A stretch of DNA of 40,055 nt from Bacteroidales bacterium. Lineage in GTDB: Bacteria; Bacteroidota; Bacteroidia; Bacteroidales; UBA932. Where the stretch lies: NCBI GenBank assembly GCA_016290835.1, contig JAEEVG010000018.1, forward strand, positions 1 through 40,055, given 5' to 3'. The position numbers and the translations under genes were made by a program. This document shows positions 3,127 to 24,656 of the stretch, piece by piece; positions within the stretch are counted from its first letter, which is position 1; the number at the start of each line of letters is the position of its first letter. Below the pieces are notes generated by a model that was not told the origin of the DNA, made no database searches, and saw nothing but the letters and a program-made list of their open reading frames with translations.

Positions 3127-4461
3127 ATGGAGATCAAACTCGAGGGTCATTATGGCTACGGACGGCTGATGTTTTCGGCCGTTCCGTTGATCGGGATGAT
3201 GGTGCTCATCAGCCTGTACAGCATCGTGGACGGCTTGTTCGTGTCCAATCTGGTGGGCACGACCGCGTTTGCGGCGCTGAATCTCATCTGGCCCGCGCTA
3301 GGTCTGGTGGGCGCCCTGGGGCTGATGGTGGGGACTGGCGGCGCGGCACTGGCGTCGAAGACCCTCGGGGAGGGCGACCGGCCGCGGGCGAACCGCTATT
3401 TCAGTATGTTCGTGGAGTTCGTCCTGCTGCTGTCGGTGCTGACCGCCGTTCCGCTGTTTATCTGGATGGAGCCGCTGTCCATTGCGCTGGGCGCGGAAGG
3501 GGCGATGATCGGGCAGTGCGTGATCTACGGGCGGATCTGTGCCGCCGGGATGCCTGCCTTCATGATGCAGATGGCCATCCAGCCATTCTTTATGGTGGCG
3601 GAGAAGCCGCAGATGGGGACGCTGGTGTCGCTGGTCTGCGGGCTGGTGAATATCGGGCTGGACGCGCTCTTCATCATTGTTTTCGACTGGGGACTGGCGG
3701 GGGCCGCGGCGGGTTCGATGATCGCCTGTGCGGTGGGTGGTTTCGCGCCGCTGCTGTGGTTTGCGCTGCGGCGGGACGATGGGACGGGGCTGCGTTTCTC
3801 CCCTGCCCGCCCGGCGCGGCGCCCGATCCTGCAGGCCTGCAGCAACGGGCTGTCGGAGTTCGTGGGGAATATTTCGTTCAACGTGGTGGCGATGTGCTAC
3901 AACCTGCAGTTGATGCGTTTTTACGGCGAGGACGGGGTGGCGGCGTATTCGGTCATCCTGTATCTCGGCTTCATCTTTATCGCGATCTATACGGGTTATA
4001 ATCTGACGGTTACGCCGTTGGTGGGGTTTAATTACGGGGCCGGGAATCACGGGGAGTTGCGCAGTCTGCTCCGCCGCAGCCTGCGCTTGATGTTGGCCCT
4101 GGGTGCCGTGCTGGCCTGTACGGCAGAGTTGCTGTCGGGTCCGGTGGCGCGGCTGTTCGTGGGTTATGATGCTTCGCTGACGGCGCTCACCGTCCACGCT
4201 ACGCGCATCTATTCGCCTTGCTTTCTATTGAGCGGGGTGACGCTTTTCTGTTCGGCCTGGTTCACGGGGCTGGGCAACGGGCCCGTGTCCGCGCTCATTT
4301 CTTTCGCGCGGACCTTCGTTTTCGAGTTGGGCTGTGTGTTCTTGCTGCCGGTGTTGCTGGGCGCCGACGGGATCTGGTTCTCCGCCTGTGTCGCCGAAGT
4401 CCTCTCCCTCCTCCTCGCCACCTACCTCCTCCTCCGCCACCGCCCCCGCTACCGGTACTAA
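3127..4461 (+). CDS. MATE family multidrug/Na+ antiporter
   Basis: A 444-residue integral membrane protein with about twelve hydrophobic segments arranged as two similar halves, the normal size and layout of MATE (NorM/DinF-type) exporters. The N-terminus (GRLMFSAVPLIGMMVLISLY) and the later segment with VTPLVGFNYGAG match conserved stretches of the family. Family members export cationic drugs or metabolites using an H+ or Na+ gradient; the substrate here cannot be read from sequence. The ATG lies one base after the stop of the upstream surface protein and no separate promoter is visible. Its 3' end faces the transposase gene, with one copy of the 161-bp repeat between them. Confidence 0.88.
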   Translation: MEIKLEGHYGYGRLMFSAVPLIGMMVLISLYSIVDGLFVSNLVGTTAFAALNLIWPALGLVGALGLMVGTGGAALASKTLGEGDRPRANRYFSMFVEFVLLLSVLTAVPLFIWMEPLSIALGAEGAMIGQCVIYGRICAAGMPAFMMQMAIQPFFMVAEKPQMGTLVSLVCGLVNIGLDALFIIVFDWGLAGAAAGSMIACAVGGFAPLLWFALRRDDGTGLRFSPARPARRPILQACSNGLSEFVGNISFNVVAMCYNLQLMRFYGEDGVAAYSVILYLGFIFIAIYTGYNLTVTPLVGFNYGAGNHGELRSLLRRSLRLMLALGAVLACTAELLSGPVARLFVGYDASLTALTVHATRIYSPCFLLSGVTLFCSAWFTGLGNGPVSALISFARTFVFELGCVFLLPVLLGADGIWFSACVAEVLSLLLATYLLLRHRPRYRY

Positions 4462-4474
4462 GCGGCTTGCAGCG

Positions 4475-4635
4475 CATTTAAAAAACAGGTGTCCAGAAAA
4501 TCGCCATCCTACGCGATATTTGTGGACACCTGTCGGTGTTTGAAGCCGATATTGGCTGTTTTGCGGGAGAGGTGTCCAGTTATTTTGCACCAGAAGGCGA
4601 TTTTTTGGACACCTGTCCGCGGAATGGGATTCGGG
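4475..4635 (+). repeat. REP-like double-hairpin element, copy 1
   Basis: A 161-bp element containing four occurrences of AGGTGTCCA or its complement, in alternating orientation. Hairpin 1 (4486-4532) has CAGGTGTCCA and TGGACACCTG arms extended inward by AAATCGC/GCGATATTT around a short loop. Hairpin 2 is at about 4570-4614. The outermost arms also pair over about 20 bp, so a larger cruciform is possible. It shares about 95% identity (8 differences) with copy 2 and the same orientation. It lies between the convergent 3' ends of the MATE and transposase genes, where it could also end transcription. Confidence 0.9.
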
Positions 4636-4653
4636 GTGCAACAGGGGTCGGAT

Positions 4654-5577
4654 TCAGCGGATGGCCAGGCAGCGGCGAAGTTGCCGGAGGGGAAGGTGCA
4701 GGCGACGTTCCAAGTCCCGGCCGATGCGGAAGCGTTGCTCCGGAGAAAGCTGATAGACAGATAGTTTGTGAAGAGCCGGGATATATTGAGTATCGATGAT
4801 TTGACAGACATCCATATCCGAAAGACGGTCCGGCGCATAGTTGTGCCCTTTTTCGGAGGAGAGCATTTCGGATATTGATTCATATGCAGGCTCCAGGGAT
4901 TCCAGCGTGATGGGAGACCCGTCCGTGCTGTCTTCAATCTGTTCTTTCTTCCATTCCTCTCCGGAGAGACGGCTCATATAATAGTCAAAGCAACGGGGTG
5001 TGCGGTAGTGATGCTCAACCAACTGTATCTGTTCGAAAGTGGAACGGAGCAGCATACCGCTGCTGTCCATGGCGAAAGAGTCGGGGAACTCGGAGCGCCT
5101 CGGGAGCAGGCGGGCGATGTCCTGCCGGGAAGTGATGGCAGGATGTTCCGGGGCTTTCCCCAAGTCTTTCCGGAAGAGGTGGTTGGCGGTGCAATGGGGA
5201 TAACTGAATGGTGTTGCGCTTTGTGCGTGGTGCAATCCATTGCGTAAAACATAACTGAGAGCCGCCAGAGTGTGTTTGTTGCCATCCACCGGGAGAAGAA
5301 AAAAGCCATCATCGAAAAGCGGACCGCATCCGTGGTGCCGGTTTCGGTGGAACTTGGTGATCCGCATTTTGAGGGTTTGGCACAGGCGGATGAGCTGTTT
5401 CTCTTCGCCTACTCCGATGCCGTGGATATGGGTGGACATCACGGCATCGACCCAGAGTTCGACTTGGCAGTTGAATGCTTCCAGAGCAAGAATGTTGGTG
5501 ATGGAGCGGACATCTTCTTCGTCCCGGAACAGGACTTCGCTGTGGCAGGTAATGCAGAAATGATAAAGTTGTTTCAT
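4654..5577 (-). CDS. REP-associated tyrosine transposase (RAYT), HUH/Y1 type
   Basis: A 307-residue protein from the ATG at 5577; an upstream in-frame TTG at 5628 is less likely. Residues 1-140 resemble the Y1/Transposase_17 fold: a first strand with HFCITCH, then LWVDAVMSTHIHGIGV carrying the HUH pair His50/His52 that holds the metal ion. FDDGFFLLPVDGNKHTLAALSYVL follows, in which Tyr109 is the likely nucleophile. Spacing and order match RAYT proteins, which act on single-stranded hairpin DNA. Residues 140-307 form a C-terminal region that I do not recognise. The gene is bracketed by two direct copies of a 161-bp hairpin repeat (4475-4635 and 5639-5799), the arrangement expected of a RAYT and its own REP family. 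Activity is inferred; function in the cell is unknown. Confidence 0.82.
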   Translation of the reverse strand: MKQLYHFCITCHSEVLFRDEEDVRSITNILALEAFNCQVELWVDAVMSTHIHGIGVGEEKQLIRLCQTLKMRITKFHRNRHHGCGPLFDDGFFLLPVDGNKHTLAALSYVLRNGLHHAQSATPFSYPHCTANHLFRKDLGKAPEHPAITSRQDIARLLPRRSEFPDSFAMDSSGMLLRSTFEQIQLVEHHYRTPRCFDYYMSRLSGEEWKKEQIEDSTDGSPITLESLEPAYESISEMLSSEKGHNYAPDRLSDMDVCQIIDTQYIPALHKLSVYQLSPEQRFRIGRDLERRLHLPLRQLRRCLAIR

Positions 5578-5638
5578 AGTCGGTCGGTTTTTCGGAAGCA
5601 AGGTAGCGAAACTCCGGCGGTTCTGCAACAGTTCAGCC

Positions 5639-5799
5639 CATTTAAAAAACAGGTGTCCACAAAATCGCCATCCTACGCGATATTTTTGGATACCTGTCGG
5701 TGTTTAGAGGCAATATTGGCTGTTTTGCGGGAGAGGTGTCCAGTTATTTTGCACCAGAAGGCGATTTTTTGGACACCTGTCCGCGGAATAGGATTCGGG
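5639..5799 (+). repeat. REP-like double-hairpin element, copy 2
   Basis: The second 161-bp copy, in the same orientation as copy 1, starting CATTTAAAAAACAGGTG and ending with GGATTCGGG. It lies between the 5' end of the transposase gene and the 3' end of tdh. Differences from copy 1 are few and partly clustered in the spacer between the two hairpins. Together, copies 1 and 2 delimit a unit of about 1.3 kb around the transposase gene. Confidence 0.9.
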
Positions 5800-5802
5800 C
5801 GG

Positions 5803-6756
5803 CTACAGGAGCTTTTCCCGCAGGTGCTTGATCATGTCGCGGGTCATGGATTCGAGGTTGTAGGAAGGGGTCCAGCCCCATTCCTTGCGGGCGCAGATGT
5901 CATCCATGCGGTTGGGCCAGGAGTCGGCGATGGCCTGGCGGACGGGGTCCACCTCGTAGCGCATCTTGAAGTTCGGGATGTGCTTGCGGATGGCATCGTA
6001 GACACCCTCCGGGTCGAAACTCATCGCGGTGATATTGAATGAGTTGCGGTGCACGAGGTAGCGCGGGTTGGCTTCCATCAGCCGGATGGCGGCCTTGATG
6101 GCATCGGGCATATACATCATGTCCATATAGGTCCCCTGGGCCAGCGGGCAGATGAATTCTTCGCCCTTGACGGCGGCGTAGTAAATCTCCACGGCGTAGT
6201 CGGTGGTTCCGCCGCCGGGGAGGGTCTTGTAGGAGATCAGGCCCGGGAAGCGGACCGAGCGGGTGTCCACGCCGTATTTGTGGTAGTAGTAGTCGGAGAG
6301 GAGCTCGGTCGCGACCTTCGTGACGCCATACATCGAGGTAGGCCGCTGGATGGTGTCCTGGGGGGTGTTGTCGCGCGGGGTGTCGGGTCCGAAGGAGCCG
6401 ATCGAGGAAGGCGTGAACACGGCGCAGTGCTTCTCGCGGGCCACTTCGAGGACATTGATCAAGCCGTTCATCTGGATGTCCCAGGCCTTGAGCGGCAGGC
6501 GCTCGGCGGTGGCGGAGAGCAGGGCGGCGAGGTTGTAGATGGTATCGATATCGTATTTGTCCACGATCTCGGCGATCTGGGTACCGTTGCAGACATTGGC
6601 CATTTCGGCGGGACCGCTCTCGAGCAGGTCGCCCGTGGGGGCGGAGCCGGGGATATAACCAGCAACGACCTGGCCCTGGTGATAAATCTTTCGGAGGGCC
6701 ATCGTGAGTTCGGAGCCGATCTGGCCGGTCGATCCGATGACAAGGACATTTTTCAT
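5803..6756 (-). CDS. tdh: L-threonine 3-dehydrogenase, short-chain (SDR/epimerase-like) type
   Basis: A 317-residue NAD-dependent SDR protein. The N-terminus has the Rossmann glycine motif GSTGQIGS (residues 8-15). The catalytic pair is Tyr143 and Lys147 (YGVTK), preceded by Ser117/Ser118 in TPSSIGSFGP. It matches the epimerase-like threonine dehydrogenases known from Flavobacterium and animals rather than the zinc-dependent E. coli type. It oxidises L-threonine to 2-amino-3-ketobutyrate. The divergently transcribed neighbour kbl encodes the next enzyme, which strongly supports the assignment. The ATG at 6756 is preceded by a TAAATTTG promoter element. The alternative, a generic sugar epimerase, is unlikely given this partner. 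Confidence 0.85.
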   Translation of the reverse strand: MKNVLVIGSTGQIGSELTMALRKIYHQGQVVAGYIPGSAPTGDLLESGPAEMANVCNGTQIAEIVDKYDIDTIYNLAALLSATAERLPLKAWDIQMNGLINVLEVAREKHCAVFTPSSIGSFGPDTPRDNTPQDTIQRPTSMYGVTKVATELLSDYYYHKYGVDTRSVRFPGLISYKTLPGGGTTDYAVEIYYAAVKGEEFICPLAQGTYMDMMYMPDAIKAAIRLMEANPRYLVHRNSFNITAMSFDPEGVYDAIRKHIPNFKMRYEVDPVRQAIADSWPNRMDDICARKEWGWTPSYNLESMTRDMIKHLREKLL

Positions 6757-6788
6757 AAGTATTCTGGCGCGAGCCGATTTTAGTTGTA

Positions 6789-6805
6789 CAAATTTATTAA
6801 TTTTG
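6789..6805. promoter_or_regulatory. Back-to-back -7 elements of divergent tdh and kbl promoters
   Basis: TAAATTTG on the minus strand (6796-6789) and TAATTTTG on the plus strand (6798-6805) both fit the Bacteroidetes -7 consensus TAnnTTTG and are one base apart. Each ends exactly 32 bases before the start codon it would serve. The -33 elements are weak (TTTT-type). The arrangement implies that polymerase can occupy only one of the two at a time. Confidence 0.6.
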
Positions 6806-6837
6806 TAAGAGAAAACGCTTATAAATCCACATAATTT

Positions 6838-8028
6838 ATGTACGGTAAATTCCAAACCTATCTTCAAAACGAACTGAAGGCCATCGACGACGCCGGACTC
6901 TACAAACGCGAACGGACCATCTGCTCCCCGCAGGGCGCGGAGATCACCCTCGCGGACGGCAGCAAGGCCTTGAACTTCTGCGCCAACAACTATCTCGGAC
7001 TCTCCGACAACCCCCGCCTGATCGCCGCCGCCAAGCAGGCGATGGACAGCCGCGGCTTCGGTATGTCCTCGGTGCGCTTCATCTGCGGCCGGCAGGACCT
7101 CCACAGGCAGCTTGAGGAGGCCATCTCGGCTTATTTCCATACGGACGACACCATTCTCTATGCGGCTTGTTTCGACGCCAACGGCGGCGTCTTCGAGCCC
7201 CTGCTCACCGCCGAGGATGCCATCATCTCCGACGCCCTCAACCACGCCTCCATCATCGACGGCGTGCGCCTCTGCAAGGCCGTGCGCTACCGCTACGCCA
7301 ACGCCGACATGGCCGAGCTGGAGAAATGCCTCCAGCAGGCCCAGGCCCAGCGTTTCCGTATCATCGTCACGGACGGCGTGTTCTCGATGGACGGCAACGT
7401 GGCGCCGATGGACAAGATCTGCGAGCTGGCGGAGAAATACGACGCCTTGGTGATGGTGGACGAGAGCCACAGCGCCGGCGTCGTGGGCCCGAAAGGCCGC
7501 GGTGTGGCCGAGCTGTTCAATCTCTACGGCCGCATCGACATCCACACCGGCACCCTGGGCAAGAGCTTCGGCGGCGCCGTGGGCGGCTTCACCACCGGCC
7601 GGCAGGAGATCATCGACATGCTCCGCCAGCGCTCCCGCCCGTACCTCTTCTCCAATTCGCTGCCGCCGATGATTTGCGCCGCCGGCATCGAGCTCTTCAA
7701 GATGCTCGACGAGAGCGATGCGCTCCACGACCGCCAGCAGGAGAACGTGGCGTATTTCCGGGACAAGATGATTGCCGCAGGCTTCGATATCAAACCCACG
7801 CAGAGCGCCATCTGCGCCGTGATGCTCTACGATGCGCCGCTTTCACAGAAGTTTGCCGCCGCCATGGCACAGGAGGGCATTTTCGTGACAGGATTCTATT
7901 ACCCGGTGGTCCCGAAAGGCCAGGCCCGCATCCGCGTCCAGCTCTCCGCTGCCCACACCCGTGAGCAGCTCGATAAGGCCATCGCCGCCTTCATCAAGGT
8001 CGGCAAGGAACTGGGCGTGCTCCATTGA
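6838..8028 (+). CDS. kbl: Glycine C-acetyltransferase (2-amino-3-ketobutyrate CoA ligase)
   Basis: A 396-residue PLP enzyme of the alpha-oxoamine synthase family, standard length for Kbl. It has the N-terminal NFCANNYLGLS signature and the phenylalanine-glycine-rich segment before FICGRQDLHRQLE. DESHSAGVVG precedes TLGKSFGGAVGG, whose Lys242 should bind PLP. It cleaves 2-amino-3-ketobutyrate with CoA to glycine and acetyl-CoA, completing the threonine degradation started by the divergent tdh. BioF and HemA-type paralogues are alternatives by fold, but the tdh neighbour and close motif match favour Kbl. Its TGA stop overlaps the TTG start of the next gene. Confidence 0.93.
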   Translation: MYGKFQTYLQNELKAIDDAGLYKRERTICSPQGAEITLADGSKALNFCANNYLGLSDNPRLIAAAKQAMDSRGFGMSSVRFICGRQDLHRQLEEAISAYFHTDDTILYAACFDANGGVFEPLLTAEDAIISDALNHASIIDGVRLCKAVRYRYANADMAELEKCLQQAQAQRFRIIVTDGVFSMDGNVAPMDKICELAEKYDALVMVDESHSAGVVGPKGRGVAELFNLYGRIDIHTGTLGKSFGGAVGGFTTGRQEIIDMLRQRSRPYLFSNSLPPMICAAGIELFKMLDESDALHDRQQENVAYFRDKMIAAGFDIKPTQSAICAVMLYDAPLSQKFAAAMAQEGIFVTGFYYPVVPKGQARIRVQLSAAHTREQLDKAIAAFIKVGKELGVLH

Positions 8029-8672
8029 TCCCGACGGTCGAATACCTGGAAGAGCGCTTCGACAGCTTCAACGCAAGCTGTTTCGAGGGCGCTCTTCCGC
8101 GTATTCCCATCAAGCTGAGCCGCGCCCGCACCTTCGTCGGGCGGCTGCAGTACAAACCTGTCCGGAACTGGCGAGGCAAGGTGGTCGGGGGTGAGAACTT
8201 CGTCATCCGCATCAGCACCAAATTCGATCTGCCGGAAGCGGAGACCGAGGACACGCTCATCCACGAAATGATCCATTATTGGATCGTCCTGAACGGCCTG
8301 CAGGACAGTTCTACACACGGGCGCATCTTCCGCGCCAAGATGAAAGAAATCAACGAATTGCACGGCCGGCACCTGACCATCTCGCACCGCAGCACGCCGG
8401 AAGAACTGGACCACGACACCCGTGTCCGGGACCACTATTTCTGCGTCTCGAAACTCGCTGACGGCCGCACGGCGATCACCGTCGCCGCCCGCACCCGCAT
8501 TCGCAGCATCCAACGCCAATTCCGCTGGTCCCCGACTGTCCGCTCGACTGCCTGGTACCACAGCCGCGACCCCTGGTTCAACCGCTTCCCCCGCTGCCGC
8601 AGCCCCAAACTCTTCCCGGTCGACCCCGCCGCCCTCCAACCCCATCTAGAAGGCGCCGAAACGCTCGCGTAG
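8025..8672 (+). CDS. SprT-like zinc metalloprotein
   Basis: A 215-residue protein with the HEMIH zinc motif at residues 80-84 (HExxH), followed by STHGRIFRAKMKEINELHG, the usual SprT-like context. SprT/Spartan-like proteins are putative zinc proteases; the eukaryotic members remove DNA-protein crosslinks, while bacterial roles are unclear. The C-terminal CxxC zinc ribbon seen in many relatives is not obvious; only one Cys is left in that region. The start is a TTG overlapping the kbl stop (TTGA), implying translational coupling; no better ATG is available without losing conserved N-terminal residues. The 3' end is convergent with potD, with repeat copy 3 between them. Confidence 0.75.
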   Translation: MIPTVEYLEERFDSFNASCFEGALPRIPIKLSRARTFVGRLQYKPVRNWRGKVVGGENFVIRISTKFDLPEAETEDTLIHEMIHYWIVLNGLQDSSTHGRIFRAKMKEINELHGRHLTISHRSTPEELDHDTRVRDHYFCVSKLADGRTAITVAARTRIRSIQRQFRWSPTVRSTAWYHSRDPWFNRFPRCRSPKLFPVDPAALQPHLEGAETLA

Positions 8673-8690
8673 AGCCCTCCAAACCCCCTC

Positions 8691-8858
8691 CCCGAACCCT
8701 TGTATCCCCTTCCGCGGACAGGTGTCCAGAAAATCGCCTTCTGGTGCAAAATAACTGGACACCTCTCCCGTAAAACTGCCAATATTGGCCCTAAACACCG
8801 ACAGGTGTCCACAAATATCGCATAGGATGGCGATTTTGTGGACACCTGTTTTCGAAAT
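8691..8858 (-). repeat. REP-like double-hairpin element, copy 3 (inverted)
   Basis: The same element as copies 1 and 2 but in the opposite orientation. All four AGGTGTCCA/TGGACACCT boxes are intact. The flanking AGCGCATTT at one end and CCGCGGAA at the other are also conserved, so these belong to the element. A few extra bases occur near the CCGCGG end. It fills the gap between the convergent sprT-like and potD genes and could serve as a bidirectional terminator. Confidence 0.88.
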
Positions 8859-8879
8859 GCGCTGTCAGCAGCGGCAGGG

Positions 8880-10178
8880 TTATCTGCAGCGGTGTTTGCG
8901 GGCTCTGCGTTTGCGGCTGAAGAATCGTTTGTAGATACCGGCGGCGAGGGCGGCGAGGAGGACGACACCGATGACGATGCCGGTCCAGGCGTTGGCGTTC
9001 TCCCCTTTCACGCGGCCCCACATGGCCACGAGTTCCGGGGTGCGCTCGCCCCAGTCGTGCTCCTGGACGCTGCGCTCGATGTCGGCGCGGTCCGGATAGA
9101 GTACAGGGTCGATGCGGACGGAGTCGGCCTGCGCCCCGAAGAAGTAGGTCAGGTCGATGGGATCGAGTTCCTCATCGATGAAGGCGTCCATCACCTCGGC
9201 GGCGCCGCTGCAGGACACATAGCCGGTCTCCTCGACATTGCGGATCACGATGTCCGGGCGGCTCATGAAGTTGATCCAGTATTTGGCGGCCTTGACGTTC
9301 TTGGCGTATTTGGGGATCACCCAGCCGTCGAACCAGACGGTGAAGCCTTCCTTGGGCAGGGCGAAACGCAGCTCCACGCCCATCTCGGCGGCTTCCTCGG
9401 CGGCCCAGACCCCGTCTCCGCTCCAGTTGAGGCTGACCCAGGCGCGCTCCTGCGTCATCTGTTCCTTGCCGAAATCGGCCTCCCAGCCGGCCACGAGGGG
9501 CTTGACCTGCTTCATGAAATTCTCCACCTCGCTGAGCGCCTGGTCGGAGGAATCGAGCATCAGTTCGTCCAGGGTGACCTTGCCGCTGTCCAGATCGTCC
9601 TGACGCAGGTAGATGATGATCTGCGAGAAGACGTCGCGGGCGGAGTCCTTGATGAGGATCTTGTCGGCGAACTTGGGGTTGCGCAGGATGTCCCAGGTGG
9701 AGGCTTCCTCGTCGGTCACGTACTTGGCATTGTAGAGGATGCCGGTGGTGCCCCACATATAGCCCACGGCGTAGTCGTTGGCATTGCGGCCGGCCCCGAT
9801 CATCTTGTCGAAGCAGCTGCGGATGTAGGGTGCGAGGTTGTCGTCGATGTAGTTGGGCGTGTTGCCGAAGTCGCGGTCGATCGGGAGCAGCAGGTCGCTG
9901 CCGAGCATACGCTCGATGATGTAGTCGGACGGGCAGACCACGTCGAAGTCCTCGTGGCCTTTCTCGATCTTGGAGAGCATGGTCTCGTTGACGTCGAAGG
10001 TCTGGTAAATGACGCGGATCGGCTCGCCGGTCTGCGCTTCGTACCATTCCTCGAATTCAGGAATGACGCTCTCGTCGATGTAGTCGGACCAGTTGTAAAC
10101 TTTGAGGACCTGGCTGCGGTCCGGGGCGCAGCCGAACATCAGTGCGGCGGCGCACAGAAGGAGGAGTACTTTTTTCAT
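8880..10178 (-). CDS. potD: Spermidine/putrescine-binding lipoprotein with C-terminal membrane anchor
   Basis: A 432-residue solute-binding protein of the PotD/PotF family. The signal peptide ends in a lipobox (LMFGC, Cys17), followed by LKVYNWSDYID, the typical N-terminal strand of polyamine-binding proteins, and DFDVVCPSDY. It should capture polyamines outside the inner membrane and deliver them to PotBC. Unusually, the mature domain ends near residue 390 and is followed by a hydrophobic helix (about residues 399-416) and a strongly basic tail (KRFFSRKRRARKHRCR). It would therefore be anchored by lipid and possibly also by a helix. It is the last gene of the pot operon, overlapping potC by 4 bases (ATGA). 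Confidence 0.88.
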   Translation of the reverse strand: MKKVLLLLCAAALMFGCAPDRSQVLKVYNWSDYIDESVIPEFEEWYEAQTGEPIRVIYQTFDVNETMLSKIEKGHEDFDVVCPSDYIIERMLGSDLLLPIDRDFGNTPNYIDDNLAPYIRSCFDKMIGAGRNANDYAVGYMWGTTGILYNAKYVTDEEASTWDILRNPKFADKILIKDSARDVFSQIIIYLRQDDLDSGKVTLDELMLDSSDQALSEVENFMKQVKPLVAGWEADFGKEQMTQERAWVSLNWSGDGVWAAEEAAEMGVELRFALPKEGFTVWFDGWVIPKYAKNVKAAKYWINFMSRPDIVIRNVEETGYVSCSGAAEVMDAFIDEELDPIDLTYFFGAQADSVRIDPVLYPDRADIERSVQEHDWGERTPELVAMWGRVKGENANAWTGIVIGVVLLAALAAGIYKRFFSRKRRARKHRCR

Positions 10179-24510: not shown

Positions 24511-24656
24511 ATTTGTAGATAGGTGTCCAGAAAATCGCCATCTGGTGCAAAATAACTGGCTACCTATCCCCTGAAACCTACAATATCGACCCAAAAACCC
24601 GATAGGTATCCACAAATAACGCGTAGAATGACGTTTTTGTGGACACCTGTTTTGGA
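24511..24656 (-). repeat. REP-like double-hairpin element, copy 4 (diverged)
   Basis: A more diverged copy in the same orientation as copy 3. All four box positions are recognisable, two of them altered (TGGCTACCT, AGGTATCCA). In hairpin 1 a T-A pair of copies 1-3 is replaced by A-T (24634 with 24619 here), which preserves the stem. It lies in the gene-free island. Confidence 0.8.

Follow-up and report, generated by a model that had tools for sequence, protein, structure and literature searches.

A probable RAYT/REPIN-type system with a distinctive repeat and C-terminal region in a Bacteroidales genome

The window, a stretch of 40,055 nt that forms contig 57 of a 2.66-Mb draft genome in 112 contigs, very probably holds a RAYT/REPIN-type system, in which one chromosomal Y1 HUH gene acts in trans on non-autonomous repeats of 132 nt. 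This reading is based on the predicted fold of the protein, the conservation of its catalytic residues, the dispersal of the repeats, a constraint on their pairing and a graded matching between repeat and protein. Together, the gene and its repeat appear to be a branch of the known REP/RAYT partnership that has not been described, in which the protein has an additional region and the repeat is marked in another way. The features are as follows.

4654 to 5577, minus strand: RAYT-like Y1 HUH protein, 307 aa, stop included (start from the first starts of relatives; fold; PDB match)
5119 to 5577, minus strand: N-terminal Y1/HUH domain, about residues 1-153, limit approximate (order of secondary structure in the model; the NF047646 match covers only this part)
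4657 to 5118, minus strand: mainly helical C-terminal region, about residues 154-307, conserved in the family and unrecognised (Pfam and PDB fold searches; A2 alignment)
4485 to 4616, plus strand: 132-nt repeat core, copy 3' of the RAYT gene (own-genome BLAST, 31-copy alignment, covariance model)
4485 to 4533, plus strand: first stem-loop of this core, columns 1-49 (hairpin analysis)
4568 to 4616, plus strand: second stem-loop of this core, columns 84-132, inverted relative to the first (hairpin analysis)
5649 to 5780, plus strand: 132-nt repeat core, copy 5' of the RAYT gene in the same orientation (own-genome BLAST, alignment, covariance model)
8718 to 8849, minus strand: 132-nt repeat core between the SprT-like and solute-binding-protein genes (absent from the matching junction of genome G075)
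24519 to 24650, minus strand: 132-nt repeat core, fourth copy of the window (own-genome BLAST, alignment, covariance model)

The gene encodes a Y1/HUH protein with His50, His52 and Tyr109, as the original prediction stated. This numbering fits an ATG start at 5577 and a length of 307 aa. The methionine aligned with 5577 is the earliest available start in 11 of 18 ORFs of the family (L031-L048); therefore, a TTG start at 5628 (324 aa) was set aside as less likely. The AlphaFold2 model, made from an alignment of 38 relatives, has a pLDDT of 94.3 and a pTM of 0.92. Its top Foldseek match is 4ER8 (E. coli RAYT with REP hairpin, E 1.9e-5), followed by the ISDra2 and IS608 transposases. The matches at E<=0.001 number 25, and all are RAYT or IS200/IS605-type except one named 'putative' transposase. 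The model places Y109 in helix 100-111, so the tyrosine is predicted to lie on the helix after the last strand of the sheet, as in the Y1 HUH superfamily fold.

The three residues H50, H52 and Y109 are invariant in 17/17 sequences of alignment A1, which consists of the window protein and 16 loci picked from a whole-protein search with no motif filter. They are also invariant in a set of 80/80 proteins; the region of the tyrosine was part of the search pattern of that set, so its conservation there is circular and only the two histidines are independent. H6, H102, H116/H117, C258 and C303 also show little or no variation in A1 and A2, although both H116 and H117 belonged to the search pattern of A2. 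Alignments A2 and A3 contain 38 and 37 loci drawn from 80 related loci, and L089, which has an internal stop, was left out of the protein alignments.

Profile searches recognise the protein weakly. The NCBIfam model NF047646 (REP_Tyr_transpos) matches at E 5e-6, but the 26.5 bits do not reach the curated cut-off of 80, and no Pfam model, PF01797 (Y1_Tnp) included, matches at E<=1. Among 39 family members, NF047646 is found in 10 and PF01797 in 2 at E<=0.01. A sequence-only search for a solved structure found none, and a search of viral structures gave nothing at E<=0.001. The own genome has one RAYT-type gene, and its three other matches in the protein search are 24-26% identical.

The C-terminal region was originally described as 165 residues long and unrecognised. 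Its length is closer to 154 residues, and it is indeed matched by no Pfam model at E<=1 and no PDB fold. W209, Q213, E229, E242, D254, C258 and R302-L304 within it are invariant in A2. Modelled alone, the region has a pLDDT of 75.3 and a pTM of 0.43, and Foldseek with this model finds no PDB match (best E 2.7). An IncFII_repA match in 1 of 39 A2 members (E 0.009) was taken as chance. The region may help the protein read the repeat.

The gene lies between direct repeats at 4470-4645 and 5634-5809, which are 93% identical over 176 nt (BLAST E 5e-74). The predicted pair of 161-bp repeats with about 95% identity is present as a 161-nt stretch with a 95% match, but the core that is shared between species is 132 nt. 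Alignment A4 consists of 31 copies from 6 genomes, 13 of them from the own genome and 18 picked from relatives; it is gap-free across its 132 columns, with a mean column identity of 82%. Beyond this core the flanks share little between species, and the own-genome copies alone share about 14-16 nt more on each side. Since these shared ends are limited to the own genome, the element that is copied here perhaps measures about 160 nt. The extra ends (window 4470-4484, 4617-4645 and others) are CCATT-like on the left and sometimes AATGG-like on the right; they are absent in other species.

The repeat is dispersed in the genome. BLAST with the repeat finds 13 long places, together with minus-strand and partial echoes. 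The covariance model recovers these 13 at >=100 bits and adds three weaker places (C101:31053, C74:2800 and C39:11546). Thirteen strong copies are few beside the more than 100 REPs per genome reported elsewhere (PMC2817692). The repeat units had been called unusually large. They are less outsized than that, as the halves of about 49 nt fall inside, at the upper end of, the quoted REP length of about 20-60 nt (PMC3116915). ORFs of at least 80 aa in a mechanical list overlap 11/13 repeat cores, which in this G+C-rich DNA says nothing on whether the repeats are extragenic, as those of REPtrons are. Rfam has no match at E<=0.1 in positions 4300-6000.

Each bracketing copy contains two stem-loops with arms AGGTGTCC/GGACACCT, which agrees with the two hairpins that were predicted, and the two stem-loops of one copy are 74-76% reverse complementary to each other. 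Covariation favours a different use of these arms. If outer arms pair with each other and inner arms likewise, so that the repeat forms a single long cross-paired hairpin, the paired share of cells is 91.8%, and changes on both sides are seen in 15 cells; shuffles give 7.5 +/- 2.0, and 0/500 reach 15. The inner helix holds 13 of these 15 cells (columns 41-43 with 90-92 and 48-49 with 84-85). The two-hairpin fold pairs 90.3% of cells and has 6 doubly changed cells versus 3.3 in shuffles (37/500 reach); it also beats shuffles on 2 of 5 measures (3/500 and 2/500 reach). Shuffling breaks the relatedness of the copies, so shuffles can be beaten without structure, whereas slid controls keep the relatedness, and these give at most 5 doubly changed cells for the cross-paired fold. 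On this evidence the REPIN fold, a single long hairpin with cross-paired arms, is preferred to two separate hairpins. The repeats are inverted doublets able to form one hairpin (REPIN), as expected of a REPtron.

The repeat was also searched for in other genomes. In ten genomes chosen by protein similarity, it occurs in 5/5 with a RAYT 67-72% identical and was not found by BLAST in the five with a RAYT at 37-56%. Among 300 same-genus genomes, the own genome included, a BLAST screen that scored two candidates per genome found the repeat in 9, and 5 genomes have a RAYT of at least 67% identity. The repeat is present in 5/5 genomes with such a RAYT versus 4/295 others. The four repeat-bearing genomes without a close RAYT are G015, G210, G175 (E 7e-5) and G048 (E 6e-4), of which the last two are weak; all four have only distant Y1 proteins.

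A covariance model, R1, was run on 20 genomes with at most 150 candidates scored. It was built from copies in the own genome (G000) and G061-G065 and favours those; G210 was not included in it. At >=100 bits it finds 13 places in G000, 4 in G061, 1 in G062, 6 in G063, 13 in G064, 3 in G065 and 5 in G210; in the remaining 13 of the 20 genomes no place reaches this score. Weaker matches occur in G015 and in G048, G066, G067, G075, G175, G215 and G268, yet the latter seven have no RAYT above 56%. G008, G107, G300, G123 and G011 have no R1 match at E<=0.001. Match counts from this screen and for the L136 and L079 repeats described below include both strands unless given as places, as the elements are self-palindromic. 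The matching of repeat to RAYT type is therefore graded and not absolute. With 13 strong copies in the own genome and copies in relatives with a close gene, the REP/RAYT-like arrangement that was proposed holds: the protein is Y1-like by structure, and the flanking repeat is dispersed and found in gene-bearing relatives.

Kinship, measured by one protein (the solute-binding protein), does not explain the distribution of the repeat. G008 and G107 are nearer (84%), yet they have neither the gene (E<=1e-40) nor the repeat, and G090 (78%), G118 (75%) and G187 (69%) have both. Of the seven genomes at 82-84% (G008, G107, G075, G268, G215, G015 and G160), none has a RAYT of at least 67%, and six are without a BLAST-level repeat, the exception being G015 (82%). 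G260 had no solute-binding-protein match at E<=1e-150 and is unplaced in this comparison. G210 (77% by this protein) may harbour an orphan repeat population: its assembly, 95% complete, has five strong repeats but lacks a close RAYT. This is compatible with non-autonomous elements that persisted after the gene was lost, or with a gene that the assembly failed to capture.

The neighbours of the unit were compared with those in G075. By Pfam, they are MatE, Epimerase, class I/II aminotransferase, SprT-like and solute-binding protein genes. G075 has the MATE, epimerase, aminotransferase, SprT-like and solute-binding genes together, and the RAYT gene and two repeats are absent among them; it holds one weak repeat elsewhere and a RAYT-family protein at 41%. 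At the corresponding position G075 lacks the whole unit, which here spans 4453-5805 and separates the MATE gene from the epimerase gene. This absence would also be expected of an IS200/IS605-like insertion sequence that moves whole, with the bracketing repeats as its ends and the scattered repeats as leftover ends. The flanks of L061-L064 are compatible with such movement as well, as their 3 kb contain no close relative of the window neighbours and only a 24-25% MATE match in two. Insertion sequences of the IS200/IS605 type, however, are expected in multiple near-identical whole copies, and here one gene copy stands against 13 strong repeat copies, which are complete inverted doublets and not single ends. 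The other Y1 proteins of the own genome are 24-26% identical, against a mean of 99.4% among IS copies of subclass 1.1 (PMC6006769, Table 1), and no match was found in 72,556 plasmid and 50,697 phage records at E<=1e-5. Movement as a whole insertion sequence is therefore improbable.

The junction between the SprT-like and solute-binding genes is filled by a repeat here (8718-8849) and lacks it in G075. A precise empty site was not obtained, as 286 nt here (8630-8915) correspond to about 60 nt in G075 and this segment is unalignable. The copy lies between two convergent genes, a position that would suit a host element such as a transcription-end or protein-binding palindrome, in which case the HUH gene would be a bystander or a tamed regulator. 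Repeats in genomes without the close gene agree with this. Such an origin is nevertheless highly unlikely, because G075 lacks the repeat at this site, the repeat tracks the gene better than it tracks kinship by one protein, and other members of the family are bracketed as well, by repeats of their own.

The epimerase-aminotransferase pair is inverted between the two genomes (window 5806-8021 versus 8699-6486 of the G075 locus L222), and the RAYT unit sits at one breakpoint of this 2.2-kb inversion. The breakpoint and the 112 contigs of the draft could suggest that unrelated stretches were joined by assembly error, but bracketing of such genes recurs in other assemblies, which leaves this explanation a negligible likelihood.

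The RAYT/REPIN-type arrangement extends to the wider family, which is present in 94/300 same-genus genomes at E<=1e-40. The named relatives of the protein come from bins of uncultured Bacteroidales, Bacteroidia or Bacteroidaceae, most of them from ruminant guts, and the host probably belongs to the same group. Flanks were compared at 80 related loci, less L060 because of its short flanks. An upstream/downstream repeat match was found in 42/79 loci, versus 3/168 shifted windows and 8/158 cross-locus pairs, and was not found by this test in 37/79. Direct bracketing, as originally described, is usual (39/42 best flank matches) but not general, since the close relatives L061, L063 and L064 have their two flanking copies in opposite orientation. 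In L062 the downstream copy is 2 kb off and only one copy is near the gene.

Stem-loops with a long loop (10-bp arms, one mismatch allowed, loop of 18-40 nt) were counted at 76 loci, L060, L104, L118 and L128 being left out for short flanks. They occur in 62/76 upstream and 65/76 downstream flanks versus 83/400 control windows, and two or more occur in 63/152 flanks versus 11/400 controls. Such hairpins are not rare as such and are present in 26/95 other tiles of the window. The arm sequences vary widely between loci. A search with the L136 repeat gave 15 matches in the genome it comes from and 6 in the L134 genome, and 4 further genomes gave none; for the L079 repeat the numbers are 7 in its source genome, 50 in that of L072, 5 in that of L081 and zero in 3 further ones. 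The repeats of more distant members of the family are different ones, and both repeat families tested are dispersed in their own genomes. The L072 genome (G314) also contains tandem clusters of partial matches to the L079 repeat, spaced about 80-82 nt apart and resembling BIME arrays, for example at C16:89634-89866 and C6:10129-10590.

The closest known systems are the RAYT/TnpAREP proteins with REPINs (REPtrons) of E. coli (4ER8) and P. fluorescens SBW25. The likeness includes a Y1 HUH fold, here as predicted by the model, one gene of its type per genome, a repeat type that tracks the gene type, and a gene bracketed by inverted-doublet repeats that are dispersed in the genome. The original prediction compared the arrangement with that of proteobacteria; the likeness to RAYTs stands, although the host is of Bacteroidales type and not a proteobacterium. 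Differences from REPtrons are the C-terminal region of about 154 residues, the NF047646 score well under its cut-off, and the lack of both a GT[AG]G foot and a tryptophan in the W/Q region. The foot is found in 0/31 left feet and 3/31 right feet (window copy 24519, L017 and L023), and a version displaced by 1-2 nt adds one copy of 31 on each side. No W occurs at residues 83-96 in 79/80 and 17/17 sequences; the corresponding motif in E. coli is W94, Q95. W94, Q95 and R104 have been linked to the reading of GTAG in E. coli, with the role of W94 called unclear (PMC6006769). That both the foot and the Trp motif are lost agrees with a different mode of repeat recognition but is no proof of it. Since the tests for the recognition features of the canonical GTAG-type RAYTs (2.2, 2.4, 2.5, 2.7 and 2.8) failed, the system is best kept apart from that group.

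The classification of TnpA and TnpAREP proteins has 11 subclasses (PMC6006769), and by the descriptions used here none fits and none has this Y motif. The second motif has a W in ten subclasses and is W[EQ] or FQ in 2.1 (PMC6006769); the family here has mostly GE (FD in the window protein) at the presumed equivalent. Subclass 2.6 (Bertels group 5) is closest in host and in atypical structures, since it occurs in Bacteroidetes and its gene is flanked by 'atypical secondary structures' with copies elsewhere (PMC6006769). It has a median of 179 aa, NH[LIV]H, WQ and YIH[QN]NP in that source, unlike the 307 aa, mostly THxH, absence of W and Y-V/I/T-LRN-G/A-LHH seen here; the two are set apart by protein description and not by repeat sequence. 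Subclass 2.1 (group 1, probably TIRYTs) is similar in its long protein with a C-terminal extension but differs in its W[EQ] or FQ and Y..LNP, and it is reported in that source to be without REP-like repeats (PMC6006769). The C-terminal HTH profiles of subclass 2.1 in Pfam (Bac_DnaA_C, HTH_23 and HTH_28) do not match the protein here at E<=1. TnpA subclass 1.2 has Bacteroidetes among its hosts and HH at Tyr+7/+8 (YIKNQKEHH, here YVLRNGLHH); unlike the present family, it has a median of 148 aa and WQ and is reported there without REPs (PMC6006769). The suggestion that the repeat family may be undescribed is upheld, as this branch matches none of the 11 subclasses as described in PMC6006769 and no description of it was found in the portions consulted of the literature searched (including PMC3733652, PMC12306157, PMC8266576 and PMC3116915; ISfinder excluded).

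The repeat, an inverted pair of units of about 49 nt, could as single-stranded DNA fold into one long hairpin or two stem-loops. By analogy with studied RAYTs (PMC8266576, PMC3116915), the protein probably binds the folded strand, and Tyr109, with a metal held by His50 and His52, would cut next to the foot of the stem. The cut strand would then be joined to other single-stranded DNA, by which the repeats could spread (PMC8266576, PMC3116915); mobilisation of the repeat by this protein thus seems plausible on the same analogy. The chances appear balanced that the family is a large undescribed Bacteroidales subclass of RAYTs, in which tetranucleotide/Trp reading has been replaced by recognition of the long stem arms, aided by the conserved C-terminal region, and which has diversified into many protein-repeat pairs with unrelated arms and the same build. 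The family is common and is without features that have been connected with recognition in E. coli, and its naturally occurring protein-repeat pairs would lend themselves to swap experiments. A large conserved C-terminal domain and associated repeats occur together in it, two traits that were set apart in the 2018 classification as described in PMC6006769.

More distant Y1 proteins with other C-terminal ends also have upstream/downstream repeat matches in 5/12 loci tested (L012, L059 and L057, and more weakly L058 and L050). In three of these five loci the repeat match spans 89-94 nt, although the similarly long proteins of subclass 2.1 are reported without REP-like repeats.
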